Below, one piece after another: positions 46,501 through 64,000 of a stretch of DNA of 64,000 bases. This DNA is from Peribolospora baueri (taxonomy: Eukaryota > Basidiomycota > Peribolosporomycetes > Peribolosporales > Peribolosporaceae). Numbering within the stretch: the stretch's first letter is position 1; each line of letters begins with the position of its first letter. The DNA lies in contig JAMDHS010000020.1 of the NCBI GenBank assembly GCA_029717555.1, positions 62,001-126,000 of the forward strand. The letters run 5' to 3'. The notes under the pieces were generated by a model, which worked only from the letters and a program-made list of their open reading frames with translations, was not told the DNA's origin and searched no databases. The position numbers were made by a program, and so were the translations under genes.

Positions 46501-46874
46501 AGGGAAAGGCGAACGGGAGCTCGTCCAAATCGCGCGAGCTCAAGGCGCGGCTGTCTGCGCTGCTGAAACAGCCGCTGACGGCGCGCGGGGTGTCGCACCG
46601 GTACATCACGTCAGGACGGCCGGGCTTTGTGGAAGGGCTGCTGGACGGGAGGCGTGAGTGGGAGGGGGCGAGGGATGGAGAAGAGAAGAGACGGGCGGCT
46701 TTTCCGCGGACCGGCCAACTGATCTATCTCTGTTTCTTCCTTCTTTCAGAGCACGCGACGCTATTGGGGGTGGAAATGTCGGCAGCGAAGGACGATGTGG
46801 GGGTCAACGCGTCCAAGGTGGGCAGGGGAGGGAGCAGGAAGCGACGGGGCGCGGTGGAGGAGGAGGCGAATTAG
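43598..46874 (+). CDS. MAK5: DEAD-box ATP-dependent RNA helicase Mak5 (DDX24-like)
   Basis: Eight exons: 43598-44267, 44363-44514, 44654-45135, 45275-45596, 45683-46082, 46184-46361, 46457-46653 and 46750-46874; 841 aa. A basic then acidic N-terminus leads to the helicase core: [14 protein letters not shown] (Q motif), [12 protein letters not shown] (Walker A across intron 2), [21 protein letters not shown] (DEAD variant DEAD), FSATLS (SAT), then [32 protein letters not shown] and [13 protein letters not shown] (motif VI). Mak5 acts in nucleolar assembly of 60S subunits. Family-specific features are the insert-rich SAT region and [17 protein letters not shown]. That KD junction is made by a GC-AG intron (45597-45682, donor AAG|GCGAGT); no GT donor in the right phase exists. 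Confidence 0.96.
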
Positions 46875-47375
46875 GCGGCACGCAGCGCCGCAGTCAAAGT
46901 TCGCTGAATGAATGGACGAGCGGAGGCGGGCAGGAAGGGGTGCTTGTATGCGCCACGTGGCGTGCCCGCCCATTCATTCCATTTCATTCTAGTCAGTCAG
47001 TGACTCGGCAGGGGCTAGTGACGCACAGAAGAACGCCACTCAGAGTTTGTCGTTGGAGAAGAAAAAAAAAAAAAAACCTCGGGAGTGCCGAGTTTGGCCT
47101 CGAGACGGACAGATAGGCTAGGCTCATTCACGTCCTTGTCCTTGTCCGGGCGGGGGTGGAGTGACGTCATCGGCGCGTCGCCCATGAGCGAGTGTGCGAT
47201 CGATGCGTGCGCTGCGCCAGGGGCGACGGGCCGCGTGCCCCGCGTGACGCGACGCAGCGTACAACAGACGGACGGACGGACGGACGGACGGACGGCCGAC
47301 ATGGACGGGGGGTGGTGTACGTCAATAATAGCGAGTCACACGACGCGATCCGGCCAGGCCAGCAGCAGCACTCAC
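46875..47375. other. MAK5 3' flank, no gene
   Basis: About 500 bp. Contains an A15 run near 47060 and an (ACGG)n tandem repeat at about 47268-47294. No coding signal until the decayed MFS gene. Confidence 0.45.
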
Positions 47376-48330
47376 TCAGGTGGGCCAACGACCGAGGAGG
47401 ATCTCGAAGCCGTAGATGGCGCCGACGGGGGTCGTGTCAGTGACCGTGTAAAGAAGACCGCCGCCGATGGCGCTCAGCGCGGCTCCGAGCATGATCCAGG
47501 GAGACCACTAGGACTATGGCTAGAACGGGTCGAGGTGCGCGAGTTGGGAAGGAGCGGGAGTGAGGGCGGCGGCACGGAAGACGTCCGACGGACGACCGGG
47601 TTCGCACCTCTACGAAGGAGCCGGACATCATGATCGAGATCGTAGAGGACCGACCTTGATGCAAGTGGCCCAGGATGCGCCTGTCAGCGAGATCCATATG
47701 GCCCTCAACTTGAGGTCGGTCGGTGAGCCTGCCGACGACGTAGTACACGCCGACGAAGATGCCCGCTCCGCCGACTCGAAGACGACCAAGGTCTGTGGGA
47801 GGGGAACGCCGAACGGCGATGGCGGTGAGCTCGGTGCCAGGTGACCGCGGATGTCGGCCTCGAGTTGGCAGGCATGTCACGTCCCGTCGCGCTCACCGCG
47901 ATGAAGATCCACTTGGCGTCGAAGGAAGCGAAGATGCGTCCTGCAGCGCGCGGACGGAAGGATGGGGATGTGGATGTGAGCGGGCGGGTGGGGCATGTCA
48001 CATCGCATTGCTTCGCATCGCTACGCGACGACGCGACGCGACGCAACGTTACGCAGAGGTCTCACCCCATGAGAGCATGAGGGCGACGCTAGCGAGAAGT
48101 TAAGAGGATTGGAGCCAGGAGATCTTGTCGAACGTGTCGAGCTCGCGGCGATGACGGGCGCGGCGGTGCCTGAGGGCGAACAAGCGAGCGAGGGAGCGAG
48201 GTGGGCTGAGCTTGGTGGGCTGCGAGAAGAGGAGCCGAGCCACACACGCACTTGATCCCTCACCTACGACGTTCGAGTCGATGCCGTTGAGCATCTCGGT
48301 CAGCACGGTGGCGAAGCGGCCACGGGCGAG
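47376..48330 (-). pseudogene. Decayed major facilitator superfamily (drug-efflux type) transporter
   Basis: Pieces of an MFS transporter of the 14-helix drug-efflux type read in order on the minus strand: TEMLNGIDSNVVG, TAAPVIAA, LDTFDKISWLQSS, ASVALMLSWGRIF, FDAKWIFIA, VVFE, VGGAGIFVGVYYVVGRLTD, LRAIWISLTGASWATCIKVG, TISIMMSGSF and SPWIMLGAALSAIGGGLLYT, ending GAIYGFEILLG. They match helices 1-5 and a later helix. The pieces lie in different frames: one shift between PVIAA and the LDTFDK segment, a stop after WLQSS, another shift near RLTDRPQ, and parts of the middle and the whole C-terminal half are missing. It cannot make a working carrier. Position next to the P450 suggests it was once the exporter of the neighbouring cluster. 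Confidence 0.8.
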
Positions 48331-49472
48331 GGCCGGCGGCGCGGGTAGGGACGGTTTGAGTGCGTGGGGAGGTGGTGGTGGGCGACGACGACGACGAGGC
48401 GCAGGTCTCGGTATCTTGCTGTATCTCTGCCTGCCTGCCTGCCTACCTGCCTGTCTGTCTGTCTCTTTCTCCCCTCCTTCCTCCCATTCTATCTTTCTCT
48501 CTCTTCTCCTGCTCTCATTCTCTATGCCAAGTGCGCATTGGGAGACGTCTGGTCGAGCCATGCGAATCGGAGCGAACGACGAAGCGCTGGCCTGGTTGGT
48601 CTTGCCTCGACAATGCGTTGTCCTGTCTGCGAGGGCGATGGCAGGCGTTTTCACGGTCGACGTCCACGCGGACGGCGTGGTGCGGAACGAGCGCGGGCAC
48701 GGCGCGGCATGAGTGGGCGTGAGTATCGTGTGTCTCCTCCGAAAGCGCCTGCCTGTGATTCTGTCTGCCCGCTCTGCTCTGCTCTGCTCTCCACTGCGCT
48801 GCACGCCGACCGGTCCGGTGGATAGGAGGACGCGCCTGCCTACGCCTTGGTGCCCCCGCCGGCCAGGCCAGGATGTGACCACCGCCTCTTCTTTCCCATC
48901 CGTTCTCCGTCCAGCCACGGCGCTTTGCCGGACCCTGGGTGTGTGCCGGAATGAGGGCCGGGCTGGGTGCCGTTCTGGGCCACACACAGACACGCCCGTT
49001 TTCTCCTGGCCGCACCCAGACCCAATCCAGACCGCATCCAGACGCGCGCCCACTAAGCCCCGTCACCCGCACTCGCTCTCGCACTCGCACTCGCACGACG
49101 GTTCCGTGTGGATAAGAACGGGCGTGCACTTTCGTCGCCTCCGTCGCTTGTTCTTCTCGCCGACGCGATCGCCACCCGCAACACAAACACGGACACGGAC
49201 ATGGGTCAGGGCACTACGTGCGTCCGCACAGGTCTGCTGGACCTGACCCGCGCTGCCCTCACTCGCCCCGCCGGCCAGATGGGATAGGCGCCTTCGTGCG
49301 TACCGTACCTTGTCATCCGCCGAGTCGTTTGCGACTGCTCCTGCGTGGGGGATCTCGAGTCCGAGCCCGGGCTGGAATTCGTCATCCTTATACCAGCTGT
49401 TCACCTTCCCCCCCTCCGTCGCCCCCGCTTGGCCCTCTCTCTCTCGCCCCCATACCCGTCTTCTCTACTCAG
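48331..49472. promoter_or_regulatory. P450 upstream region with simple repeats
   Basis: About 1.1 kb. Contains CCTG/TGTC tandem runs (about 48428-48465), a (GCTCT)n run near 48773-48790 and a (GCACTC)n run near 49070-49097. No gene supported. Confidence 0.4.
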
Positions 49473-51349
49473 ATGGGCCTCCTATCGCTCCCTTTGCCCT
49501 TCGACCATGTCCCGCTGCAGGGCTTCGCCGCCGGCGTCCTCGTGCTCTGCATCCTCGCGCTCCTCTTCCGACGCGTCGTCTCGCCCTGGAAGAACGGCAA
49601 GCGCTCCCACCCGTTGCCAGACTCGCCTCCCGGCGCCTTGCCCTACTTGGGCCATCTCTTCTATGTCGCCAAGCCGAGCCTGATGCGCTCCAACTTTGAG
49701 AAGTGGGGCCCCAACTTTGGCGATATCTTCACCTACACAATCGGCCCGCACCGGTTCCTCATCCTCAACAGCACCCACGCCATCGAGGAGCTCCTCGGAA
49801 GGAGGGGCGCCATATACAGCTCGAGGCCGATGGATGCCAGTGAGTCGTCCGTCAGTCCAGTCCAGTCCAAGCGTCGGCGCCGCTTGTCGCCTGCGGCCAG
49901 TCGGCCAGGCCAGACTGGGGACGACTTTCGACGGTATGCTCACCTCTTCTCGCCTCGCCCGGCCCGGGACAGTCGCTCGCGCCTTCTTCACCCAGAAAGC
50001 CACCTCGTTCACCCCGTACGGCCCCGTGTGGAGGCACGCACGCACGCTCATCTCCAAGTCGTACGGACCGGCGCACGCCGTCTCCGACTTCACACGACGA
50101 CTCCTCGAGACCGAGGCCGGGGCGCTCGTCCAGAGGTTGGCCAGGGAGGTACCGTCGACGGAAAAGTTCGATCTGAACGTGGGCTACTACGCACTTGCCG
50201 TATCCTGGCGGACCATCTTCATGGCCGAGGAAGTGGACCCGGCGATCATCGAACCGGCGACGACGGCGGTGCGCGGCGTCACCAAGGCCGAGGGCTTCGG
50301 GTCCAAGATGGTCAATCTGTTCCCCTTCCTCGAAAAGGTACCCGGCTTCCTGCACCGCGACGTGTCGGCGGCGATCGAAGCGCGCAGGGACCTGTCCGCC
50401 ATCTTCGCCCCTCGCTACTACGAAGCCTTGGCCAAAGTCAAGGCAGAGCGTGACGGAAGGCCTCTGCCGTCCGGGCTCGAGCCGGACTGCCACGCGCGTT
50501 TCGTCGCAGAATCGCAGCTGGACGGCGAGATCGACGAAGAGCGGGCCGTGTTCCTCATCGTCGGCCTCCTCTCGGCCACGTCGGACACGACGAGCGGGAG
50601 CGTGAGCTGGATGGTCAAGTACCTGGCCGAATACCCGGAGGTGCAAGCCAAAGCGCACGCCGTGCTGGACGAGGTGGTGGGCCGCGACCTGTTGTCGCCG
50701 CCGACGCTGGCACACGACGCGCGCGAGCCCGACGGCCACTCGGCGCTCGAGTACATCCGCGCCATCGTCAAGGAGACCAACAGGCTCAACCCGGCCTCTC
50801 CCACCGGCGGCCCGAGGGTGGTGGAGCAAGACGACGCCTACAAGGGACGCTTCATCCCTCGCGGCTCCATCGTCTTGCTCAACCTCGGCCACGTTCAAAG
50901 GGACCCGGCGGTGTACGAAGACCCTCTCCGCTTCGATCCCGAGCGTTGGCTGCGCGCTGACAAGACGGGCAAGCGCCCCGGCCTCGACCTCGCCCACGAC
51001 GTGTGGCCCTGTGAGTTGTTTGCTCAGCCCCACTCTGTCCGTCTGTCCATCCATCCCTTTCGATCCTTCCCAGACGTGTGCCCGGAAACAGACCTGACTC
51101 TGATCACCCTCTTTCTCTATCCACCCCTCGCCCCCCTTTCCCCCATCAGTCGGCGCGGGCCGCCGGATCTGCCCGGGCATCTATCTAGCGACCGAATCTC
51201 TTTTCATGGCCATCACGTACATCCTTTGGGCGTTTGAAATTCGACCCCGCCACCCTTCTGACACGCTTGACACGGCCAAGGACCCGGGTGTGGGCAAGAT
51301 CGTGGTGGCACCCACGTCTTTGGACGTCGTTCTCGTACCCCGTCTGTAA
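49473..51349 (+). CDS. Cytochrome P450 monooxygenase
   Basis: Exons 49473-49839, 49973-51010 and 51150-51349 give 534 aa. An N-terminal anchor (GVLVLCILALLFRRVV) and a proline hinge (PLPDSPPGALPYLGH) mark an ER-bound enzyme. Later features: the I-helix SATSDTTSG, the ExxR motif in KETNRLNP, PERWL, and the haem loop FGAGRRICPG, built across intron 2, with its cysteine ligand. The family cannot be named safely, but the loop and RPMDA region resemble fungal CYP5xxx-type enzymes used on secondary metabolites (for example the O-methylsterigmatocystin oxidoreductase group). It opens the oxidative gene run on the right of the window and is convergent with the aldolase gene 108 bp away. Confidence 0.93.
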
Positions 51350-51457
51350 TAATTGTATTCATTGTGACTGCCTGCGCCTGCGCCTGCCCCCCCAGCACAT
51401 TCCGTTCCCCTATCCCTTTTTCATTCCTTCATGACCTGTAATCCATTAGTGACAAGC

Positions 51458-52464
51458 CTATTTCAAAATCTGCGCTCCAGACAAAGCACCCTTGGCGGCG
51501 GAGAGCGTAGAGTAGGCGTACTCGTTGAGGGCGGCCAAGTCGGTCATGACGGCCAACAGGGACATGCCTCGTCCGGCGTTCTTGCGAGTCAGGGCCACGC
51601 CGGCGTCGACGTCGATGGCGGCTTGGGCGGGAGCGGAGAGAGTGCCGACGAACTTGTTGCGCTCACGCGCCGCGGCGGCGACGGAGGCGAGGGCGGCCTC
51701 GAATTCGGCCTCGTCTCCGTCCAATCCGGGAGGGAGGTGGAGGGAGAGGCGCAGGTCGGCGGGGCCGACGAAGGCGCCATCGATGCCGGGCACGGCGAGG
51801 ATGTCGCGCACGTTCTCGACGCCTCGCTTGCTCTCGATCTGCGCCATCAACGTAATCTCCTTCGAGTGCTTGAAAAAGTACGAGGCCACGCCCGGCCGCG
51901 TGCCGCCGCCGCCTGCTGGACCGAGTTGCCGTGGCAAAGCAGCGATGGCGTGGAAGGGTCCGAAGGAGCGCGACCCTTCGGGCGGGTAACGGGCGACATC
52001 CACGATGGCCTCTGCCTGCTCTCGCGTTTCGACCTTGGGTACGATGAGACCGCTGGCGCCTGTGGTGGGGGAAGAGGTGGAAGACAAGAGTTAGCTTAGC
52101 GTGTCCTCGGTGTTTCGCGTCCTCCCCGGCCTTTCTCTCCCCCTTCTCTCTCTCTCTCTCTCTCACCCGCGTCCAACGCCCACTTGACCCAAGCGATATC
52201 ATGGCTGGGCAAGCGAACGATAGGCGCCGTTCGGCCCGCGCCGCCCATGGCGATCGCCTTGACCAGCTCGTCCATCTCCGTCGGACCGAGCGGGCAATGC
52301 TCGGCGTCGATGACCATAAAGTCAAAGTCATGGGTGTGTGCGAGCGTGCGAGCCAGGACGGCGCTGCCCGAGACGAGCCACATCCCGAGCAGCGGCTCGT
52401 CCGCCTTGCGAGGGCCGGCGAGCCGGGAGCGCAGGGAGAGAGACAGGGGCACGTCGTCGTCCAT
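51458..52464 (-). CDS. HpcH/HpaI-type aldolase
   Basis: Exons (minus): 52167-52464 and 51458-52059; 299 aa from MDDDVPLSLS. Class II pyruvate-aldolase features: LLGMWLVSGSAVLARTLAHT, DFMVIDAEHCPL (with the general-base region), VRLPSHD, GLIVPKVETREQAEAIV, ARYPPEGSRSFGP, LMAQIESKRGVENV (the metal-binding Glu) and PGIDGAFVGPADLRLSL (the metal-binding Asp). The family cleaves or forms C-C bonds between pyruvate-like and aldehyde units using a divalent metal. An upstream in-frame ATG at 52609-52611 would add 50 residues with an Arg/Ser-rich, mitochondrial-like look; the shorter start fits the usual family length. The substrate is unknown. It shares a 513-bp divergent promoter with the amine oxidase, pointing to co-regulation. 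Confidence 0.9.
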
Positions 52465-52977
52465 CGCGGCGATGGAAGGAGCGTTTCGGAGGAAGGGGGC
52501 CGAGCGTGGGTGGGTAGAGCGGCTGGCGGCAAGTCGGCCGAAGCTGGCATCTTCCGGACTTCCGCGCCAGGACGGGGAAGAGGGTCTGTCGTTGATCAGA
52601 GCCCATCCCATCCTTGCGCTCTACGTGCATACACTCCCGTTGCGATACAGATCCAGAGTCGGACGTGCATGCGATCCGTAATCGCACGGTCGCTCCTCGA
52701 TCGACTAGTGGGGACCATTCAGCCCCCGTGGCCGACTGACCAGCTCAAGGAACGACCAACGAATGGCATCGCCGCCTTCCACGTCCGAGCCCGAGCCCAA
52801 GCCCGAGGCGAGAGGAGAAGAGACGAGACGAGACGAGACGAGAGCACGGCACGAGCAGCCGGAACACGAACGAAAACTTTCATATTCATTCCCGCCTTTG
52901 GCCATGGCCTGGCGCAGCCCGGACAGCCCGTGTACGCCGTGCCTGCCAACCTTTCCTTCCCTCTGGCAGCTTTAAAA
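52465..52977. promoter_or_regulatory. Divergent promoter of aldolase and amine oxidase
   Basis: 513 bp. Contains a (GAGAC)n-like tandem repeat at about 52821-52843. If the long aldolase start is used, the space shrinks to 366 bp. Confidence 0.5.
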
Positions 52978-54833
52978 ATGCAATCCGACTGCGACACCGT
53001 CGTCGTCGGTGGGGGCGTCGGTGAGCGAGCCGCACTCCATCTCCGCAGACCTGAGTCGGTGAATCACGCTGACCCCGCCGCTGTGGATCGTTCGCAGCGG
53101 GCCTTCAACTCGCCCTCCGTCTGCTCCACGCCGGGAAGAAAGTGGTAGTGGTCGAGAGCTCCGATCGGGTCGGCGGTCGCATCCGAGATGTCGACTTTGG
53201 CGAGGGCATCGAGATCGCCGGTCTCGGCGCCTGGAGGTACAACGCCAACGACAACAAGGTCGAGGCGCTCGTGAAACACTACGGCATCGCTACCGGCTCG
53301 TGGGCCAATCCGACGAGGCAGTACGCGGCGAGGAACGGTGAGCTGGCCGATGGATGACCTCTTCTTTCTCGCGCAAGGATCAAAAATGACGAGAGCGGAG
53401 ACGAGCGGCTAACGTCCATGCGCCCTCTTTCCTGCGGACCAAGTCGTCAAGCCGAGCGTGCGCGCGATTCGACAATCCGTTTTCCCCTCCATCGGCGAGG
53501 ACCATCCGCTGGCGTCTCTGCCCGAGGACGAGGTGGACAAGAGGGCGAGAGAGATCGTGGCGCAATCCTTCCTCTCCTTTTCTCCCAACGAGCATGCTGG
53601 CGACCCACCGACGGGGGGCACTCCCCCCGTCATGTCTACCATCGTAGAAGACGCATTCGGCACGGAGACGGAGCAGTTCTTGTCCTCCGTCTCCCACAGC
53701 TACCACGCCATCTCCGGCCTGCCCGTCGACTTTGTTGTGAGTGCTCGCTAGAGCGGACCCGCCGCGGCGTATGTATTCCAACCCAACCTTGCCCTTCACA
53801 TCTGTCCAGTCGCTCATCCGGTCCGCAAACCCCGAAGAAGACCACCCTTCGAGGCCCGTGCGAGGGATGAACGCCCTCGTCGAGGCGATGGCCAACGATG
53901 TGACCGCGCGGTCGACCGTTAGGCTCAACAGCGAGGTGGTCGGCGTGCGCAGGAGCGACGGCGACGACAAGGGCGGCCGCAAGTATACGTTGACGCTCGC
54001 TGGGCCCGGTGCGACGGGAGAGAGCGGCCATCGAATCACCGCCGACTCCGTGGCGTTGGCCATCCCCTCGTCGTCGCTGCGACGGCTCGCCACGGCGTCC
54101 TCCCTTCTTCGCCCCTTGGCCGAGAACGCGCTGTTGTCGGCCAGCTACGGCATGCCCGCGTTCAAAGCGGTGGCTCTGTACCCCAGCGCGTGGTGGAGCG
54201 CGGCGGCGGTGGCGAGTGACGGGGACGACGAACGACGAAACCTCCAAGACCGCGAGTTCCTAGTGACTTCCTTCTCCAAACTCGGCCTGGTCATGCCGTA
54301 CGCGGGCAGAGGTCCGCGCGGGGAGGCGGCTCTCCACCTCGCCTATTGCAATGACCACCACGCGGCACAGGGCGGTCACTGGGCTCGGCTCGTCGAACGA
54401 GCGAGAGGGGACCGAGAGGAGATCTACGCCAGCGTCGAGTCTGAGCTTCAGGCCCTCTTTCCCACTGCGGACATACCGCGGCCGATACGCTTCGAATACG
54501 TCCTGTGGGCGGACGGGTCGATGTGAGTTACGTTCCGGCGGCGGCCCCGGGGGGGGGGGGCGGGCGCGTTCAGCTTCGACTAACCATCGATCTCTTCTTC
54601 GGTTTTGACACCCGGAACGCGGCGCTTGGGCCAGACACGTTCCTTGTCTCGTCCCTGGTGCGGAACGGGGATTATCGCGCAAGGTCCTCGAGGATTGGGC
54701 CGTCGGCGGACCTCTTCCGGGCGAGCAGATCGTCCTTGCCGGCGAAGCGTTCGCGAATCGGTGGGGCTGGGTGGAGGGGGCGCTCGAGACGGCGGACAGG
54801 GCGGCGGACGTGCTGGTGGGTATGTCCGAATAA
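52978..54833 (+). CDS. Flavin-containing amine oxidase
   Basis: Exons 52978-53020, 53098-53337, 53444-53736, 53810-54522 and 54635-54833; 495 aa. The dinucleotide-binding motif VVVGGGVAGL is created across intron 1, followed by VVVVESSDRVGGRIR and EGIEIAGLGAW, as in MAO/polyamine oxidases. The C-terminal flavin motif is present: GEQIVLAGEAFANRWGWVEG then ALETADRAADVLV. These enzymes oxidise a primary or secondary amine to an imine and release hydrogen peroxide. No N-terminal signal or C-terminal membrane anchor is seen, so it is probably soluble. The intron at 54523-54634 holds a 12-G run. Its place in the cluster suggests it works on an amine intermediate, for example a tryptamine-like group, but that is inference. 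Confidence 0.9.
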
Positions 54834-55077
54834 GAGAAAAACAACGAGAAACCAAACTGGCTTTGCGACTTTGTTTTTCCCTCGAAAACGGATATTGTAA
54901 TGACGTCGTTTCGATATCGTCTTAAGGAGATGATCTAATACATCTAGGGGAAGAAGAAAAAAAGAGGCCCCACAAAGATCCATTACGCACACACCCACAC
55001 CCCGCCCAAAACCGTCAGGACTACCCATTCATTAGAGCGCGCTGGGGAAGTTCGAGAGACAAAGGGACGCGGGGTTT

Positions 55078-56673
55078 TCAACGAGACGAAACGGAGGCGC
55101 AGGCGCTGCCGAGGGCGAAACCCTGGTAGAAGAGGCAGGACGGGTCCCACTGGGCCTTGAGGGCCTCCAAGGCGGGCAAGTTGGTCTGGTACAGGTCCTG
55201 AGGGCCGAGATCGGCGACGGAGGCATAGTTGGGGTACGCGCCGAGCGGCTTGCCGTCGCCGCCCACATCGATGCCGGCGGTGTGAGCGAGGGCGGAGAGC
55301 TGCTTGCGGAGCTGCGTCGCGGCGGCGGCGGCTTGAGAGTCGAAGGAAGTGTCGGTCCAAGTGAGCTGGATGCCGACGATGGCACCGAAGGTGTAAGGCT
55401 GCGGGGGCCAGGCGGCCTTGGCGTTTGAGATGACGTCGAAAGCGGTCTTGCGCACGGGTTCGAAGAGGACGGCGCTGCCGTTGTTCACCTGCGGGTAGGT
55501 AGCGAGGAAGGAGGTGTAGGTGGAGAGGGCCTGCTCGAGGAAAGCGGCAGGGAGGGAAGCGACGGTGAGGGTGTCCATGATGTAGCGACCGGGCGGAATG
55601 TTAGCGTCCTGCTCCTGGTTGACCTGGACGTAGTTCTTCTCCGCGGGCGGCGGCAACATGGGAACGGAGACGAGCTTATCGAAGCCGGCAAAGGCGCCAG
55701 AGCTGTTCGCCGCGGCGGCCGTGCCGTTGAACCACGGGTTGGCGAGGATAAAGACGGTGTTGTCGAGAGCGACGAAGGAGACGATCGCGTTGGCGCTCGT
55801 TCCGGTGTCGCTGGCCGTCATGGTGTCCATGGCGCTGGAGACGCCTGCGATGTCGTTGGCGCTGTAGAGCCAGAAGCCGGACCACTGCGTGGGCGAGACG
55901 GGGAGGGTGTTGAGCTCGAAGGAGGTGACGACACCCAACTGGTTCAGGGTGCCGCGAAGGCCGAAGAAGAGGTCGGGGTGGGAAGAGGCGGAGGCGGTGA
56001 CCACTTGGCCTTGGGCGGTGACGACTTGCATCGAGACGATCTGGTCCGTCGCAAAGCCGGCCGCGCCGGTGAGCCAGCTGTCGCCGCCGCCGAGGAGGAG
56101 GCCGCCGACGCCGACGTCGGACACTCTTCCGCCGAGGGGGAACCGGGTGCCGCCGGTGGCCGTCTGCATGGAGGAGTAGACGTCGCCCCATCGCGCGCCG
56201 GGGCCGACGGTAACGCGTTGGGTCTGGCTGTCGTAGCTGGTTTTGTTGAGCGCGCGCAGGGAGAGGACGAGGCCGGGCGGGTACTTGCCGGGGGCGTCAA
56301 ACTTGTGACCTCCGGCGAGGACGGCGTAAGGGATCTTCTGCGAGGAGATGCAGCTGATGATCTCCGCCACGTCCTTGCTGTTTGCGGGCAGCGCCGCGAC
56401 GGTGGCCTGGGAGTAGGCCACGTTGGCGGCGAACCTGCCGACGGCGTCCTGGAAGCCTGCGTCGGACGAGTTGAGGAGCACGTTGGCCGACGACAGCTCG
56501 AGTTTGCACCTGGACAGCGCCGCGGCGACGTCCTGAGGCGTGACCGTCGGCACAAACTCTGGAGCGCGCCGGCCACGACCGCCGCCTTCGTGCCCGTGCC
56601 CGTAGGCGCTGGAGAAGCACAAGCCGGTCAGGGCGCAGAGCAAGCCGAAGGGGGTGTTTGCGGGGAGGCGCAT
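55078..56673 (-). CDS. Secreted FAD-linked (berberine-bridge-type) oxidase 1
   Basis: A single exon of 531 aa. It starts with a signal peptide (MRLPANTPFGLLCALTGLCF, then SSAYG). The PCMH FAD-binding domain follows: PANSKDVAEIISCIS, VLAGGHKFDAPGKYPPG with His123 in the place of the flavin-linking histidine, VTVGPGARWGDVY, FPLGGRVSDVGVGGLLLGGG and GLRGTLNQLGVVTSFEL. The substrate domain carries several N-glycosylation sites (for example NGTA, NNGS). The C-terminus (YQGFALGSACAS) lacks the usual short berberine-bridge motif. Only one covalent flavin link is expected; no Cys is seen at the second site. It would act in the secretory path or outside the cell. The second oxidase lies 764 bp upstream in the same orientation. 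Confidence 0.92.
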   Translation of the reverse strand: MRLPANTPFGLLCALTGLCFSSAYGHGHEGGGRGRRAPEFVPTVTPQDVAAALSRCKLELSSANVLLNSSDAGFQDAVGRFAANVAYSQATVAALPANSKDVAEIISCISSQKIPYAVLAGGHKFDAPGKYPPGLVLSLRALNKTSYDSQTQRVTVGPGARWGDVYSSMQTATGGTRFPLGGRVSDVGVGGLLLGGGDSWLTGAAGFATDQIVSMQVVTAQGQVVTASASSHPDLFFGLRGTLNQLGVVTSFELNTLPVSPTQWSGFWLYSANDIAGVSSAMDTMTASDTGTSANAIVSFVALDNTVFILANPWFNGTAAAANSSGAFAGFDKLVSVPMLPPPAEKNYVQVNQEQDANIPPGRYIMDTLTVASLPAAFLEQALSTYTSFLATYPQVNNGSAVLFEPVRKTAFDVISNAKAAWPPQPYTFGAIVGIQLTWTDTSFDSQAAAAATQLRKQLSALAHTAGIDVGGDGKPLGAYPNYASVADLGPQDLYQTNLPALEALKAQWDPSCLFYQGFALGSACASVSSR

Positions 56674-57436
56674 GGCGGTAAGCGCACCGGGCGGGGGGCA
56701 AAGGGAAAAGAGTGGGAGAAGCGGAGCAAAAGAAAGGTGAGAGAGTGTGCGTGAGCGCTAGAAGGCCTTCCTCGCTGCCCCCTCCCAAGACTTCCTCGTC
56801 TTCTTTATGTCTTTTTTGCTCGAGACACGGGAGGGGAGGTACGAACGGTGGCGGCGGCGGCGGTGGACGAGGCGAGGTGGATATGCGTGTTCGTTCCATC
56901 TTCACCACCGGGGCGGGGGCTTGCGCCTTTACGCCCACGGCGAGGCGAGCTGGCGAACGAAGCCTGGGCCTCTGGCAGGAAAAATGCGGGACGGAGGGCG
57001 CCAAGGCAGAAAGGGGGGAGGGAGGTGAGTGAGGCCGGCGACCATCATATCTCCCTTCGAAGACGGCGCATAACCAAAGAGGTCGACGGACACATCGCCC
57101 GTGGCGTAATGCTTCTCCAATCACCCACACGCATAGCAGTAGCACGCACTGACCCGGGTCGAGGCGAGACGAGACCGAGTCTGGTCTCGAGAGATCGTTG
57201 CGGAAGAGCACGCACGACTCGGAACCGCATAATAATTCCTTCGGATGACCGGGAAAATTTTTAGTATTTCTTTTCCCACACAGCGGAAACAGAACATGGT
57301 AAATTCCCAGAAAAACACAAAAAGAATAATAACAACGACGACGAGCCCAACGGACTACGCGCACAGGAATCAAATCTGGCCAAGAAGGACGCTAAAGCGT
57401 CCGGCCGGACGGGTGCTTTTCTTTCGACAGGCTCGT
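56674..57436. promoter_or_regulatory. Upstream region of oxidase 1 and 3' flank of oxidase 2
   Basis: About 760 bp without a gene. A 14-bp palindrome (cgtccggccggacg, 57398-57411) lies just downstream of the oxidase 2 stop codon, possibly part of its 3' end. Confidence 0.4.
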
Positions 57437-59632
57437 TTACGCAGGCGAGATCTGGATACCCTTGTTGAAAACGTTCTCAGGATCGTACTTGGCCTTGAGC
57501 CGCTCCAGCCGGCCAAGGTTCTGGCCGTAGTATTCGGACGCCGGGACACCCGCGAGGGAATAGTTGGGGTAGAGCAACGCGCAAGCCGACTTGCCGCCCG
57601 CCGCCTCCGTGATCCGTTTCTCGCCATCGAGCAGGGCGTCCGGGACGAGGGCGTTGATGGAGGGATCGGGCGAGACGATGAGCAGCTCGAACACGTTCAA
57701 TTGCGGGTCGCCATGGGGGAACGCCGACGACTCGTTGGAGAAGTTGGCGAACGCGCCCTGCGGACACAGGAAAGGGGGGGTTCAGAGACCTTGGGTCAGC
57801 CCCTCGGCCCTCGCGACAGGCGGGGGCGGCATTCCCACCTTGAACATGGGCTCCACGAGTACGATCGTCCCCATAAAGCGCGGGTCGCGCCCGATCAACT
57901 CCTCCTGCCACTTGAGCGCCGCCTTAAAGACGTCGACGGTGAGCTTTGCGGGGGAGGCGGTGTGCATGAACGCGTTCAAAACGTTGGACGGCGTCGACAA
58001 CGAGTCTGATGGTGATGATGATGATGAAGAGGCGAGCGATCGATGCAGAACGAACGACGGGGGTCAGTCAGGAGAGAGCCGCACACGCACGCGACCAGCC
58101 GAGGAAGGACTCGCCCTGCATCGCGTTAACCTCTTCCCAAGTCATCTCCTTGGTCTGGTTGGCGACCGGCCCCAAATCAAGAGCCCATTTGAACACCTCC
58201 TGCCCTTCCTTCTCGGTGCCGTTCGTCAGCAGAGGCGCGATGACGCAGGCAGGGTGGTACTCGGGCGGCTGCCGCATGGTGACGAACAGCAGGGACGCTC
58301 CCGGGTCACGGTTGTTCGCGTGGAAAGTGGAGATGGCCTCTGTGAGCGCGTCGAACTTGTCCATAGTGAAAGCTGGTGGAGGTGGGGGGGGCCGGGGTAG
58401 AGAGAGGTGGGTGAGCACCGCCAAAAAGGCTGTTCTGGTCCGCCAGTCCTTTAGGTCCATGAACCGACCGACGTACCGATCACTCCAGACCAGCTTCGCT
58501 TCGGCTTCGGGAAAGCTCGCTGCGAGCCCCGGGGGGGAAAGGACAAAGAGGGAATTGAATACGCTTGCACGACAGCGTGGCGCAGAAGAAGCAGAAGACG
58601 GACTGACCAAGACAAACTCGGTGACGACTGCAAGAGGGCAAGACATGACATGAATGGCAAGACGACTCAGGTCAAGACTCCGGGGGGGGGGGGGTCATGC
58701 GGCTCTGCTCTGCTCGACTCAAGCCGCCGCATGCTCACCACCGAACTTGTTTCCGGCGCCTTTGAGGGCAAACATGAGGTCTGCGTCGTCTTTGGCGCGG
58801 ACGACCTCCCCGTTAGCGAGGACCACCTGAGCGGCGGGGGGGAGGGGGGAGGAAGGGCCAAAGTGCACGCGGGGTGAGCAGGAGAGAGAGCCAACGTGCC
58901 CCGGGGCCGAGGGCGAGCGGCCATCCGTCTGGCTCACCTCGGCATCGACGAGACTGTCGGAAGCGAGGCCGTGCTCGTGAGCGAGGTAGCTAATCCCACC
59001 GCCGAGGATGAAGCCGCCCACGCCGACGGAGCCGACCCTGCCGCCGAGAACGGTGACGTCGGTGGAGGCGAGCTTGCCATACACGGACGACCACGTCTGA
59101 CCGGGGCCGAGGACGACGGTGTTGTCCTTGGCGTCGTACTCGACTCTGAGACGGAGCGAGGTGATCAGCACACAGGAGAAAGGGGAACGACCGACGGTGC
59201 GCTAGCTAGCCAGGCCGGGCTGGCTGGTTGCTGCTGCTGCTGTTGCGGCTGCTCACTTGTTCAACTTGGCGAGGTCGATGACGACGCCCTCCGACTGCGA
59301 GTACGACATGCCGCCCGACCGCACAGCAAAGTCGATCTTGTTCGAGGCGAGCCATTTCACCTGCACACGAGGCCCAAGGTCGCGAGGCAGGAGCGGAGGT
59401 CAGGCAAGGCAAGCGACGGGCGGGCGCGGGAGAGCACACGACGAACGGTACGTACCGCCTTGGAGACGTCGTCCACGGTCGCGGGCCGGAGGACGGCTTG
59501 GGCTTGTTTCTTGTTCTGGACGCCCCACGAGGTGGTGGACTTGTTGAACTCTGCGCCATCGGTGGGGGTGATGACTTCGCCAGAGAAGGCGGGTCGGAAG
59601 GCGGCGAGCTGTTCGGCGAAGGAGGCAGACAT
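57437..59632 (-). CDS. FAD-linked (berberine-bridge-type) oxidase 2, histidine replaced
   Basis: About nine exons (minus): 59456-59632, 59257-59360, 58938-59145, 58739-58826, 58608-58627 (20 nt or slightly longer), a short exon near 58473-58521, then about 58068-58379, 57839-58005 and 57437-57757. Readable blocks: AFSGEVITPTDGAEFNKSTT, RPATVDDVSKA, SNKIDFAVRSGGMSYSQSEG, VVLGPGQTWSSVY, VLGGRVGSVGVGGFILGGG, NKFGVVTEFVL, FTMDKFDALTEAISTFHANN and YPNYSLAGVPASEYYGQNLG. The FAD-attachment histidine of the GGH motif is Met77 (GGM), so flavin is probably not held by an 8-alpha-histidyl bond. There is no signal peptide, so it is likely cytosolic, unlike oxidase 1. Borders between 58379 and 58627 are uncertain, because the introns there have lengths divisible by three and no stops. 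Confidence 0.82.
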
Positions 59633-60666
59633 GGCGGCGAGGCGAGGCGAAGCGAGGGAACGCGATCTGTGGCAAGCGAGGTCGGGCGTGAGGATGGTGG
59701 TGGGACGCGTCTTGCGTCTTGCTTTGGCGGTGGACGTGGCCGACGGGCGTGGCTGGCTGGCTATCTATCCAAGGGGTCGTCGTGACCGCCGATAGACACC
59801 CACAGCCGCCCGCCCGCCCATCCGACGGGCCGGCGAGCCCCGACGGGGGCGGTGGAGAATCGAGGATGCGGATGAAACACGACGGCGGTCGTGCGTGTCC
59901 GACAAGCTCGCTGTCCGTCGCACAAGGTGCGTGCGTTTGGTGCGAATACGGATGGAGCCTTAATGGCCACGTTCCCACGTTACGCCGCAGCCCCGTGCGG
60001 GGCATCGAAGTCCGCACGGGGCTGCGGCGCGCGACCCAGAAAGCAGACTCTGGTGCGGCCCAGACATACATACGTGAAACCGACGTGGCTTGCGGCACGG
60101 CGGCCGCATTTTAGAAGTGGGTGAGCGGACAAGGCTTGCTTAGAATCGCACGCGCCAGGGCCTCCCAGTCGATGGCCAATCGCCAATCGCAAGCGTCCAT
60201 CGCCCATTCCACCCGTCCCTCGGCCTGGGCCCTGCAGGGCGCCGCTTGATCGCCGTCCGACGTCGGACTGACCGTCGGCGAGCATCGAGATCGATTGCGT
60301 CGCGTCGCGTTCCTTTTCCTACCCCGTCCTCGCTGTCCTCCTGTCTGATCGCGGCTTGAGCGCCGGTGTACCGCCTAGTTCGATACTCGAGTGAAGAAGG
60401 TTCCGCGACCGTGAATTAAAGGAACGCTCGCTCGCTAGTTGGAAATCTATTCTCCGCGAAACGACTAAAACGGCCAGTCAGGTCTAGTCTACATTATTAT
60501 AGGTCCGCAAGCGGGGTAGGTAGCAGGGGGGACGTGTCTACGATGAAAACAAGGTATACAGAATGGAACCATGCAGAGAAAGGGTAGCGAAAAAGGGAAG
60601 CGAAAGGAAAAGAAAGGGTGGTGCAGAGGGAGAAAGAACAACAAGCGCGGACGGACGGCCCCACGT
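59633..60666. promoter_or_regulatory. Oxidase 2 promoter and DMATS 3' flank
   Basis: About 1.03 kb with no gene. It holds the 18-bp inverted repeat at 59983-60029 described separately. The rest is ordinary GC-rich sequence. Confidence 0.5.
59983..60029. promoter_or_regulatory. Perfect 18-bp inverted repeat with CGG-N11-CCG core
   Basis: Left arm 59983-60000 (cgccgcagccccgtgcgg) and right arm 60012-60029 are exact reverse complements, separated by 11 bases (ggcatcgaagt). The inner ends give CGG-N11-CCG, the spacing bound by Gal4-type Zn2Cys6 dimers, and the arms extend the symmetry far beyond the half-sites. It lies about 350 bp upstream of oxidase 2. Confidence 0.7.
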
Positions 60667-62097
60667 TCAGGCGCGGCCCCGTTCCCGAGCGTAGACCTCT
60701 GGGCTGAGGTAGATGGTAACGTCGCGCTCGCCGTTCTTGATCGCGCATCCGATCATGGTCTGCAATCCGGATCGAGAATTCAGGTCGCGGTGAGCGCCGA
60801 GTCGACGTACGAGGTCGGAATACCAACCGCGCTCGCGAACGAGACCGTGTCGGACCAAGAAATCGTCCATCCGGTCGGCCAATAGGGCGTCGGATCGGAA
60901 GTAGTGTCGCACGGGGAGATAGAACTTGGCCGACGGTAGAGGTCGGCCCTTGCGGAGCTCGTAGTAGGCCACGATGCCCTTTGTTCGCTCTGACTGGCCG
61001 TCGAGGTCTTGGCACGCCAGCACCGAACTAGAACCGGTCGTCGCCGTCGTCGTCGTCGCCTGCGTGGCCGGCGCGGGAACGTCCACAGGCACCTCACAGA
61101 ACGCCGCCCAGAGGTCCTGAGCGGCGCTGATCTGAGACTGCAGGGCGGCGTCGGTGGAAGGGACGGCACCGCCGAGAGACAGGTGCGACACCAGGTCGTC
61201 GAGGCCGGAGACGCGGAAACGCACGTAGACCTTGACGCGCGCCAGCTCTGGGGAAAGGCAGTCGACGCCCAAAAATTCGACCGTGCCCGCGGGCTCGTCG
61301 GGGCGACGACCGGCGTTGAGACCGCGCAGGTAGGCGTCGATGGCGTTCCACCCTTGATCGAGGCCGATGGACCTCATGGCGTCCGCGTAGGCCGCTTCGA
61401 CGGGTTGACGACGACGACGGTTGTGGGCGCGCTTGAGGGCGTCGGTGCACATGTACGCTTTCAGCAGCGGCTCCCGGCCAACGAGGTCGCAGCCGAACGC
61501 CAGTTGGGTCAGACCTTTCGCTTCGTCCGGCACGTTTGGGCCCGGGTCGAGGACGAGGTGCTTGCGGAGTTGGTGGAACCAGCCGAGGTCCATGTTGGGC
61601 GAATACGCCTGGTGCTCTTCGACCCATGCCAGCGGCGCCAGCGCGTTCACCGGGTCGGCCCTCTGCAAGGCCTCCGTAGGTGGCGCGGGCTCAAAGGAGA
61701 AGCGCACCTTGGCGCCGGCGTTCTTGGAGATGCTGATTGAGTACTCCACGGGAGAGTGGTCGTCGGTCATGTACGACTTCCAGCGCGCCGTCGGCAAGCC
61801 GCCCGGGCCATCCATCGGGGGGTTCGGGCCCAACGCGCCGGATCGGACGACGCGTTCGATGAAGAGCTCGCGCGAGGCGGCCGCCCGGCCGACGTCCTCT
61901 TCGCAGGCAGACAAGAGGATAGAAAGTTGCTCTACCAAGAGAGCGGCGCGGAACCATGGCGGCTGCTCCTTCTGCTGCATCGCCGAAGCGGTACTCGCAG
62001 ACCTGACCCTCCCGCCTAGTGCGGACCGGAGGGTGGGTAGACAAGTGGAGAAGGTGGGTTTAGAAGAAGCGAGGGTCTGCTGAGGGGCGAGCATCAC
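60667..62097 (-). CDS. DMATS-type aromatic prenyltransferase
   Basis: A single exon of 476 aa (437 from the second plausible start at 61980, MQQKEQPPW). Dimethylallyltryptophan-synthase family features in order: WKSYMTDDHSPVEYSIS (acidic residue E118 that would hold the indole nitrogen), VRFSFEP (R132), LLKAYM (K213/Y215), EFLGVDCLSPELARVKVYVR (R287/K289/Y291), SHLSLGG and AKFYLPVRHYFR (K391/Y393). These Lys/Arg/Tyr pairs form the ring of the PT-barrel that shields the allyl cation and binds diphosphate. The enzyme should move a dimethylallyl or similar group from its diphosphate onto an aromatic acceptor such as tryptophan, tyrosine or an indole product. The first 39 residues are Ser/Arg-rich without acids, like a mitochondrial presequence, which is odd for this family. 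It is the likely signature enzyme of the surrounding cluster. Confidence 0.88.
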   Translation of the reverse strand: MMLAPQQTLASSKPTFSTCLPTLRSALGGRVRSASTASAMQQKEQPPWFRAALLVEQLSILLSACEEDVGRAAASRELFIERVVRSGALGPNPPMDGPGGLPTARWKSYMTDDHSPVEYSISISKNAGAKVRFSFEPAPPTEALQRADPVNALAPLAWVEEHQAYSPNMDLGWFHQLRKHLVLDPGPNVPDEAKGLTQLAFGCDLVGREPLLKAYMCTDALKRAHNRRRRQPVEAAYADAMRSIGLDQGWNAIDAYLRGLNAGRRPDEPAGTVEFLGVDCLSPELARVKVYVRFRVSGLDDLVSHLSLGGAVPSTDAALQSQISAAQDLWAAFCEVPVDVPAPATQATTTTATTGSSSVLACQDLDGQSERTKGIVAYYELRKGRPLPSAKFYLPVRHYFRSDALLADRMDDFLVRHGLVRERGWYSDLVRRLGAHRDLNSRSGLQTMIGCAIKNGERDVTIYLSPEVYARERGRA

Positions 62098-63747
62098 CGT
62101 CGGAGGGGTTTATTAACGTAGAGCGGGAAGCAGGAGCAATGACCGCTATGGAGAGACGCGAGCAGGATAGGATCGCAAGCGCTCTGATTGTGAGAGGGAG
62201 AGAGGGAAGGTGAGGGCCATCCGAGGCAGGTACGGACGGACCACTCTGCTTTTTTTTACTCTTATCGGGTCCGGACAAGCGATCTCATCCTTACGGGGCC
62301 ACCCACTGCGGGATGGCCGTCTGAACAGACCCGTGGGCTGGGCTGGGCTCGGAGAGGTGCTTTCCGCCGCAGGGGAGGGCGACGGATAGCAAACCGGAGG
62401 ACCGGTGGGGATGGAATAGTCAGCACGTTACCCGGAGACAGACCAGACCGGTAGGCAGGGCACTGCAACGACTCGGATAAGCGGTGGTGGACAACGGCGG
62501 TGCCGTCCTGGAACGGGCTTGATGCACCCGCTTGGAGTTTGCACATACGGCGCGCATGTTATCTATAGCCGTCCGTCCACTGAAAACTGAAGCGGGCACA
62601 GCCTGAGAGACGGGCTGACCTGGGCGTGTGCTCATCGCACCCGGAAGAGGCCAGGGCGTTCTCCAAGGCGGCGGAGAGCGACCCAGTTAGGTGTGCGCCC
62701 GCTGTACTCTTCTTGCTGTACTCCACCGGACGTTCCTCTCCCTGCGCTCAGGGCCGTCACGAGACGACGACACGTTCAAAGGCCATGGCAGGAAGCGCCG
62801 TCGTTGCGCGGAGCAGAGGAAGTATGCTCATATTAGCATTTTCGTTCGTCCCTGCCTCGCTCTCTCTGCCTCTTTGTCTCTCTGTCTCTTTCTGTCTCTC
62901 TCTTTCGCAAGCGGAGGTGGAACGGTGCGGACGGAGGGACGAGAAGACGAAGCGGGAGCGAGAGAGAGAGGAGAAGCGGATATGGACCGAAGATCAAAGA
63001 CGAAGAACCGCGCCGTGCCTACAGAGGACGTGGCAGACGAATACGAATACAAATTCGAATACGAACACGAATCATGACCGACCTGTCTCTGCATGGACAC
63101 GGATGGAGCTGCCAGGTGCCAGGCCCAGCGCGAGGGTCACTCTGGGCCTGCGCGCTGGCGGCGGTACCCTGGAGTCACCTCTTCGGAAAGCGGCTCCAAC
63201 TCGGACTAGGGCGGCGTTACGGTGTTCCTGCTGCGTCGTCATGGCTTATCATGCGTACGCACACCCAGCCAACACCCAGCAACACCCAACGACACCCACC
63301 GTCACGCTCGTCCCACTCTCTCAACACCCCGTGGCCGGGTGGACCTTTTACTCGAGTCCTGCCTTCTCCCGTCGGCATTCGCATGGATCCTGATATCCGG
63401 CTGTGGCCACCGCTCTCACGCCCGCTGACCTGCGCGCACAGCTTCTCCGTCGGCCTGTGCAGCCAGCAAGGCCTTCATGGCCCCGGCCTGGTGCTCCATG
63501 ATCTGCACCGACAGGCGGAACAATGTGTCCACCTATAATCTCATCATCGTCCCCTGCGGCGCGTGCTCCAACCAAGGCACGCAGCCAACGACACACCCTC
63601 TTAAAGCTCCACGGGGCCTCTCGTCGCACCGTCAGGTGTCCCTCCTTCCACCTCCACCGCCTTCGCCGCTTTCGACTCCATACCCATTCCCCTCTCCACC
63701 AACCCGTCCGGCGCGTCGTCCATCCACCGCCCTTGACATCGCTCAAG
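62098..63747. promoter_or_regulatory. Upstream region of DMATS and of the right-edge gene
   Basis: About 1.65 kb between divergent starts. Contains CTCT-rich and GA-rich stretches (about 62850-62990) and a degenerate GAATAC repeat near 63037-63070. Long open frames are low-complexity and overlap each other on both strands; none is supported. Confidence 0.4.
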
Positions 63748-64000
63748 ATGGATCCGAGCGCCCTTCCGACGATGACCATCCCGGTCGTCAGCGAGACGCT
63801 CTTGCGGCAGCAAGGTGAGCAGTAGCAGTCACGAGCCGCCGCTGGGCATGGGCGAGAGAGAAGAAAAAAGGAAGGAATGAAGGAAGGAAAGGGCGCCCAC
63901 GCCAGCGTCGCTCGTCCGCCCCCTCGACTCTTCTCACCTCCGTGCGTGCGTCCCACCTCGCGCCTATAGCCACCTTCAACTACATTCAGGTAGCCTTTGC
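63748..64000 (+). CDS. 5' end of an unidentified gene (truncated by the window)
   Basis: Exon 1 63748-63814 encodes MDPSALPTMTIPVVSETLLR QQ and ends in phase 1 at a GTGAGC donor. Exon 2 starts at 63970 after a CTATAG acceptor and continues ATFNYIQ to the window edge. The splice borders and phase agree, so a gene probably starts here, but too little is visible to name it. It may belong to the neighbouring enzyme cluster. Confidence 0.5.

Follow-up and report, generated by a model that had tools for sequence, protein, structure and literature searches.

Can a handful of enzyme genes that include neither a polyketide synthase (PKS) nor a non-ribosomal peptide synthetase (NRPS) form a biosynthetic gene cluster, and what would such a cluster make? 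The question arises from a 64,000-nucleotide stretch of the genome of the basidiomycete Peribolospora baueri (contig JAMDHS010000020.1, positions 62,001 to 126,000 of the forward strand), hereafter the window. Within it, genes for a cytochrome P450 (P450), an HpcH/HpaI aldolase, a flavin amine oxidase, two oxidases of the berberine bridge enzyme (BBE) type that are linked to flavin adenine dinucleotide (FAD), labelled BBE1 and BBE2, and a prenyltransferase of the dimethylallyltryptophan synthase (DMATS) type occupy positions 49473–62094 (strands +, −, +, −, −, −, in that order). The predicted genes make up a real orphan cluster, putatively biosynthetic, in which intact enzyme genes are located together beyond chance.

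Six genes co-located beyond chance

Each family was assigned by Pfam, and the place and order of the six adjacent intact genes are those of an earlier, sequence-only reading of this DNA (Table 1). Of the outer ends given there, the P450 start at 49473 matches exactly and the other end does not, the DMATS gene beginning at 62094 rather than at 62097. All gene models were predicted from DNA alone, using stop-to-stop reading frames and a small codon-bias gene finder followed by hand checks; manual placement was needed for the last amine oxidase exon and for three of the eight introns of BBE2, with the reading frame and the usual look of such proteins as guides. The spliced models have GT–AG introns and no internal stops, and the haem motif of the P450, FGAGRRICPG, is restored across an intron. 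A few details are ambiguous or unusual: the first P450 acceptor has two in-frame choices, with exon 2 possibly starting at 49901, the aldolase has a possible alternative upstream ATG at 52611, one amine oxidase acceptor is an unusual AAG, and BBE1 scores 17.4 bits against the Pfam model of the BBE C terminus, below the cut-off of 20.6 bits. In these predicted models, all six genes are readable as intact. Gaps of 108 (P450–aldolase), 513 (aldolase–amine oxidase), 244 (amine oxidase–BBE1), 763 (BBE1–BBE2) and 1034 bases (BBE2–DMATS) separate them, and the 513-base gap is a divergent upstream region common to the aldolase and the amine oxidase. Gene content, integrity, tight packing, bounds and conserved catalytic and cofactor motifs are thus read directly from the predicted sequences. 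The G+C content of the cluster is 0.638, compared with 0.589 for positions 1–46365 of the window; per 2 kb, positions 44001–64000 have 0.61–0.65, richer than most of the preceding window (0.56–0.64).

The whole genome, a 22.1-Mb assembly in 178 contigs, was searched with profiles. The DMATS locus is its only PF11991 match, and the genome holds at least 4 HpcH, at least 4 amine oxidase, at least 9 FAD_binding_4 and at least 20 P450 loci, lower bounds obtained by our grouping of exon matches. Given a single DMATS locus and these family counts, the probability that random placement puts one P450, one HpcH, one amine oxidase and two FAD_binding_4 loci within 12.6 kb of the DMATS is approximately 2e-11. 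This figure is post hoc, as the family set was picked after being seen, and serves as a guide rather than a test; even a thousandfold correction would leave the conclusion that the co-location is beyond chance unchanged. Ketoacyl-synthase and condensation domains occur in the genome, but none of the matches listed lies on the cluster's contig, in keeping with the earlier description of a compact basidiomycete DMATS cluster without PKS or NRPS. Domains of pyridoxal-phosphate (PLP) decarboxylases also occur in the genome, again with none of the listed matches on that contig.

As far as the scans reach, the predicted cluster consists of these six genes and is bounded on both sides. To the left, the core-gene border proposed earlier is borne out by a DEAD-box helicase gene identified by Pfam. 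It is followed by approximately 3 kb without any Pfam match, containing the dead exporter of the major facilitator superfamily (MFS) that the same reading had noticed: three collinear minus-strand pieces align with pieces of a locus on another contig of this genome (L007, contig C22) at 67%, 52% and 68% identity by tblastn. The L007 locus itself matches MFS_1 at E 4e-4, below the cut-off. Direct Pfam scans of the relic stretch gave no match; the fragments came to light through the L007 comparison. To the right of the DMATS, six-frame Pfam scans gave no match at 62100–64000. The cluster edges had been described as unknown, with the right side leaving the window; this no longer holds, as a gene for a protein that appears to have multiple transmembrane (multi-TM) segments, a NagB-like gene and Pescadillo come after the DMATS.

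Table 1 Predicted features of the cluster and its flanks (window coordinates; those to the right of the window continue its numbering)
Feature	Position	Strand	Structure	Length	Evidence
DEAD-box helicase gene	43691–46365			 	Left flank; Pfam
MFS transporter relic	47391–47941	−	Three collinear fragments		Left flank, outside the pathway; tblastn
Cytochrome P450	49473–51349	+	3 exons (49473–49839, 49973–51010, 51150–51349)	534 aa	Pfam PF00067, E 4.8e-62; splice model
HpcH/HpaI class II pyruvate aldolase	51458–52464	−	2 exons (51458–52059, 52167–52464)	299 aa	Pfam PF03328 HpcH_HpaI, E 7.7e-36
Flavin amine oxidase	52978–54833	+	5 exons	495 aa	Pfam PF01593 Amino_oxidase, E 6.3e-39, positions 1–442 of 443
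BBE1, FAD-linked oxidase	55078–56673	−	1 exon	531 aa	Pfam PF01565 FAD_binding_4, E 2.8e-23
BBE2, FAD-linked oxidase	57437–59632	−	9 exons	468 aa	PF01565, E 1.1e-26; PF08031, E 9.1e-9; splice model
DMATS-type aromatic prenyltransferase	60667–62094	−	1 exon	475 aa	Pfam PF11991 Trp_DMAT, E 7.3e-61, positions 40–348 of 357
Multi-TM-looking protein gene	63772–65561				Right flank; gene finder and reading of translation; no Pfam match on tested piece
NagB-like gene	67691–69260				Right flank; translation reads as glucosamine-6-phosphate deaminase; not by Pfam
Pescadillo	70191–72757				Right flank; gene finder and Pfam

A prenyltransferase with a predicted altered acceptor pocket

The DMATS was compared with FgaPT2 (3i4x, with chain numbering offset by 6). 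Five FgaPT2 residues are kept, Glu89 (E117), Arg100 (R131), Lys187 (K212), Arg257 (R286), which we take to bind diphosphate, and Lys259 (K288), and three are changed, Lys174 to A199, Arg244 to E273 and Gln343 to K390. Arg100, Lys187 and Lys259 are diphosphate-binding residues of FgaPT2, and its Glu89, which is kept in most family groups, holds the indole NH (PMC11443524). Lys174 has been proposed as the base, whereas Arg244 contacts the substrate carboxylate of tryptophan (PMC7253389). This combination of kept Glu89 and diphosphate residues with changes at the other three sites points to a predicted DMATS that is active-looking but not an ergot-type tryptophan C4 enzyme.

The same sites suggest which substrates to consider. 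In place of Lys174, other residues signal different substrate groups: aromatic-polyketide and cyclic-peptide prenyltransferases typically have a small hydrophobic residue, reverse-C2 cyclic-dipeptide prenyltransferases have Ala, and tyrosine O-prenyltransferases combine Phe at this site with Lys at the Gln343 site (PMC11443524). Two assignments were rejected on these grounds: an L-tryptophan C4-prenyltransferase of the ergot type, whose Lys174 and Arg244 equivalents are here Ala199 and Glu273, and a 4-O-dimethylallyl-L-tyrosine synthase, given Ala199 in place of Phe, although Lys390 fits.

A protein search with the DMATS gave five relatives, and six with a profile, with top identities of 39% and 38%, from unnamed sources. 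At the Lys174, Arg244 and Gln343 sites, the two closest proteins have A/E/K and V/E/K. Glu occupies the Arg244 site in all three close rows of the alignment and in none of 20 more distant ones (16 of the 17 prokaryote loci described below, the bacterial protein P0005 and the unnamed P0003, P0004 and P0084), where Arg occurs in three and Lys in one; at the Lys174 site, 19 of these 20 have Trp and a badly aligned one (L023) has a gap. In four aligned solved chains, the Arg244 site is Phe, Phe, Arg and Thr. The Glu-273 signature, known from three sequences, may therefore mark a DMATS subfamily of its own.

No named fungal relative, Parajaminaea included, was retrieved at E 1e-3, or at 1e-5 with the profile, by the word-based search, which scored 8000 candidates; because it requires shared 5-residue words, distant ascomycete DMATS enzymes would be missed. 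A pattern-based scan of prokaryotes yielded 17 relatives from 106 pattern-matched stretches, with best segments at 22–29% identity and no close relative among them, and the viral contigs yielded none from 39 such stretches. The best solved relative is PDB 8day, dimethylallyltryptophan synthase 1, presumably from Fusarium fujikuroi (E 3.7e-21 alone, 2.6e-31 with a three-row profile); the similarity is nevertheless weak, with Phe at the Arg244 site where this DMATS has Glu. An unusual fusion was seen in P0005 (Myxococcaceae bacterium GXIMD 01537), in which a bacterial DMATS is joined to a PF14518 domain and annotated as an iron-containing redox enzyme family protein.

Companion oxidases and aldolase

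In a PDB search, a monoamine oxidase B (MAO-B) chain is the first match of the amine oxidase (1.6e-11) and an ancestral L-amino acid oxidase (LAAO), 8jhe, the second (4e-11), with 6-hydroxynicotine oxidases also among the matches. Its Arg61 falls opposite the Arg in the GGMR motif of 8jhe, where MAO-B has Tyr, and its C-terminal GWVEGALETAD follows the motif GWVEGAL(E/Q)TAD shared with 8jhe. The LAAO of snake venom engages the carboxylate of the amino acid through Arg90 (PMC7052187). We infer that Arg61 would correspond to this Arg90. The two motifs compared tilt the predicted enzyme towards an amino acid substrate without settling it.

The aldolase aligns with solved HpcH/HpaI pyruvate aldolases through its motifs DxEH, R, E and FVGPADL, whose residues presumably have metal-binding and catalytic roles, and it matches the sequence of macrophomate synthase (1izc) at E 9.3e-23. 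The two FAD-linked oxidases may differ in both location and flavin attachment. BBE1 has a hydrophobic, signal-like N terminus (by eye) and, in an alignment with EncM, keeps the GGH flavinylation site, whose His we take to be the flavin-linking residue. BBE2 has no obvious signal peptide (by eye) and has GGM where its aligned relative 9p1o has GGH, so its flavin may be non-covalent or linked through Cys only, rather than through His. The closest protein to BBE1 comes from Parajaminaea phylloscopi (Basidiomycota, Ustilaginomycotina, Exobasidiomycetes, Microstromatales), at 46% identity over 93% of the length; among its remaining matches, those with a coverage of roughly four fifths or higher show 25–30% identity. 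Judged by this one protein, the fungus would be a relative within Exobasidiomycetes and so probably related to the smuts.

A possible pathway and its competitors

We propose, with about an even chance of being right, that these genes form a functional six-gene cluster that includes no NRPS or PKS and yields a prenylated aromatic metabolite through deamination, pyruvate aldol addition, prenylation and oxidative tailoring. The amine oxidase, acting as an LAAO, would convert an aromatic amino acid of the Trp, Tyr or Phe type to its 2-oxo acid. The HpcH/HpaI enzyme would then add the enolate of pyruvate, or that of decarboxylated oxaloacetate, to the 2-oxo acid carbonyl and so form a branched hydroxy-dicarboxylic skeleton. 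C- or O-prenylation by the DMATS would take place on the aromatic ring of an intermediate bound without an Arg244–carboxylate contact. BBE2 and the P450 would oxidize or cyclize the product inside the cell, and the secreted-looking BBE1 could carry out a final step along the secretory route or outside. Both the substrate and the order of steps are our inference from the enzyme families, and prenylation and deamination could come in either order.

This proposal draws on the intact models, the post hoc co-location figure and the non-biosynthetic flanks on both sides, together with the Arg61 and GWVEGAL motifs of the amine oxidase, the aldolase motifs, fungal aldolase precedents (discussed below) and the kept DMATS residues. 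Several points weigh against it. For a DMATS acting on a free amino acid, Glu at the Arg244 site would be unexpected, an objection softened by 8day, a named tryptophan enzyme with Phe at that site. Against PDB chains, MAO-B scores slightly better than the LAAO, and 6-hydroxynicotine oxidases are matched too, which makes an ordinary amine a possible substrate of the predicted amine oxidase. No homologue of the whole six-gene set was retrieved, and the set may not be common even to Parajaminaea, which gave a relative of BBE1 and none of the DMATS in the word-based search. By Pfam, the stretches scanned contain no regulator, and no transporter other than the relic.

A more specific and unlikely extension is that the DMATS represents a new subfamily whose acceptor pocket bears an acidic residue (Ala/Val-199, Glu-273, Lys-390), working in a deaminate-then-pyruvate-aldol pathway towards a prenylated monatin-like hydroxy-dicarboxylic acid, its lactone or a spirocycle. 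If true, the scaffold would be built from an amino acid, pyruvate and dimethylallyl diphosphate without any megasynthase.

The main rival, a serious one although we hold it only tentatively, is that the cluster receives a phenolic or polyketide aromatic from genes elsewhere in the genome and decorates it, the DMATS prenylating a phenol and the other five enzymes modifying it. The sequence-only reading had proposed an aromatic amine (tryptophan, tyrosine or tryptamine) as substrate, which is one candidate among others. The basidiomycete enzymes BypB, VibPT and ShPT use orsellinic acid, hydroxybenzyl alcohol or aldehyde and hydroxynaphthalenes (PMC10344970), and Ala199 falls in the residue class described at the Lys174 site for polyketide and cyclic-peptide prenyltransferases (PMC11443524). 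The genome has several ketoacyl-synthase loci; as ketoacyl-synthase, condensation and PLP-decarboxylase domains all occur in the genome, either route of substrate supply may be open. It is hard to see, however, what an amine oxidase and a pyruvate aldolase would do to a phenol, and the Glu89 equivalent is kept, though Glu89 occurs in most family groups (PMC11443524).

The locus could also be a mixed neighbourhood, with a catabolic amine oxidase–aldolase pair (amine to aldehyde, then aldol or retro-aldol reaction) beside a smaller DMATS–BBE–P450 cluster, which we consider quite improbable. HpcH/HpaI aldolases and amine oxidases are classical catabolic enzymes of bacteria, the genes point in mixed directions, and the widest gaps are the two that separate BBE1, BBE2 and the DMATS from one another. 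The pair nevertheless sits between the P450 and the BBEs rather than outside, with gaps across the set of 108–1034 bases, and the flank Pfam scans found no other catabolic family, though a NagB-like gene lies further right. Chance neighbours or a decaying locus without joint function, to which the adjoining dead transporter might point, would be very improbable given six genes readable as intact and a co-location far beyond what the family counts predict. Scarcely credible is a pathway of the ergot or clavine type, through 4-dimethylallyl-tryptophan, N-methylation and a chanoclavine cyclase: a DMATS, a BBE-type oxidase and a P450 do occur together, but Ala and Glu replace the Lys174 and Arg244 equivalents and the scanned flanks and gaps contain no catalase, old yellow enzyme, methyltransferase or short-chain dehydrogenase/reductase (SDR), so that the predicted gene set already contradicts it.

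Relation to ergot clusters and other known systems

Ergot and clavine clusters contain DmaW/FgaPT2, EasE and CloA, plus genes for a catalase, an old yellow enzyme, an SDR and an N-methyltransferase. The present locus shares with them the grouping of a DMATS with a P450 and a BBE-type FAD oxidase, and the sequence-only reading had drawn the analogy to the ergot and clavine DMATS. At the level of the enzyme the analogy breaks down, as Ala and Glu here replace Lys174 and Arg244, the FgaPT2 residues linked to C4-prenylation of free L-tryptophan (PMC7253389, PMC11443524). The same reading had noted that the gene set differs from that of ergot, and rightly so: six-frame Pfam scans of 46300–49470, 51200–55080, 56700–60700, 62100–64000 and the next 10 kb (E up to 0.001, one scan at 0.1), with the rest of 49116–62109 scanned as long reading frames, found none of the EasF-, EasC-, EasD- or EasA-type families, and, beyond the ergot pattern, the cluster has an aldolase, an amine oxidase and one more BBE. 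With two key DMATS residues replaced and the companion families not found, membership of the ergot type was rejected.

The cyclopiazonic acid cluster also pairs a DMATS (DmaT/CpaD) with a flavoenzyme of the amine oxidase family (MaoA/CpaO), with a P450 in A. oryzae (PMC3202784). That cluster needs a PKS–NRPS, absent here, and the available portions of its description mention no aldolase or BBE pair (PMC3202784). For aldolase-type C–C bond formation in fungal secondary metabolism, macrophomate synthase and CghB, a predicted helper in making an unusual amino acid of Sch 210972, are precedents (PMC8159843); neither is described there with a DMATS, and CghB is likened here by predicted role rather than by family. 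DMATS genes are already known in basidiomycetes, as 11 were reported to be expressed in Rhizoctonia solani (PMC9593035). Few of the enzymes appear to have been characterized: BypB and VibPT, placed in Russulales, and ShPT from Stereum are the ones named, and all act on phenolics (PMC10344970). These three likewise belong to the DMATS superfamily in basidiomycetes and are set against the present enzyme, from an apparent Ustilaginomycotina fungus, by description only; a 2024 paper on basidiomycete O-prenyltransferases is also cited (PMC11443524).

In the literature searched, which covers few subscription papers, we found neither a pairing of a DMATS with an HpcH-type aldolase nor a counterpart of the full set. 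The earlier suggestion of an undescribed basidiomycete pathway stays plausible for the complete set, and is narrowed for one of its parts, the combination of a DMATS with an amine oxidase flavoenzyme being already present in the cyclopiazonic acid cluster. As far as seen, the full gene set is new, with known patterns within it: DMATS, BBE and P450 as in ergot, DMATS and amine oxidase as in cyclopiazonic acid.

Orphan clusters are common in fungi; this one is compact and bounded, comes from a lineage with little characterized DMATS chemistry and carries a specific active-site prediction. Six bounded genes with a single-exon DMATS are small enough for reconstitution, and the substitutions in the predicted DMATS pocket lead to direct, falsifiable predictions of the substrate. 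If the aldolase acts as proposed, the cluster would reach a prenylated branched acid without a megasynthase.

Other features of the genome and window

For 5.8S rRNA, the genome has a single listed match (L005:1501–1651, contig C106; 101 bits, over the cut-off), which looks mutated by eye when held against what we take to be the usual fungal 5.8S, and is followed by truncated-looking rDNA; this copy may be degenerate, with the true array collapsed or missing in the assembly. Within the window, positions 27943–33495 of the plus strand form one uninterrupted frame of 1850 codons that translates into a large protein.

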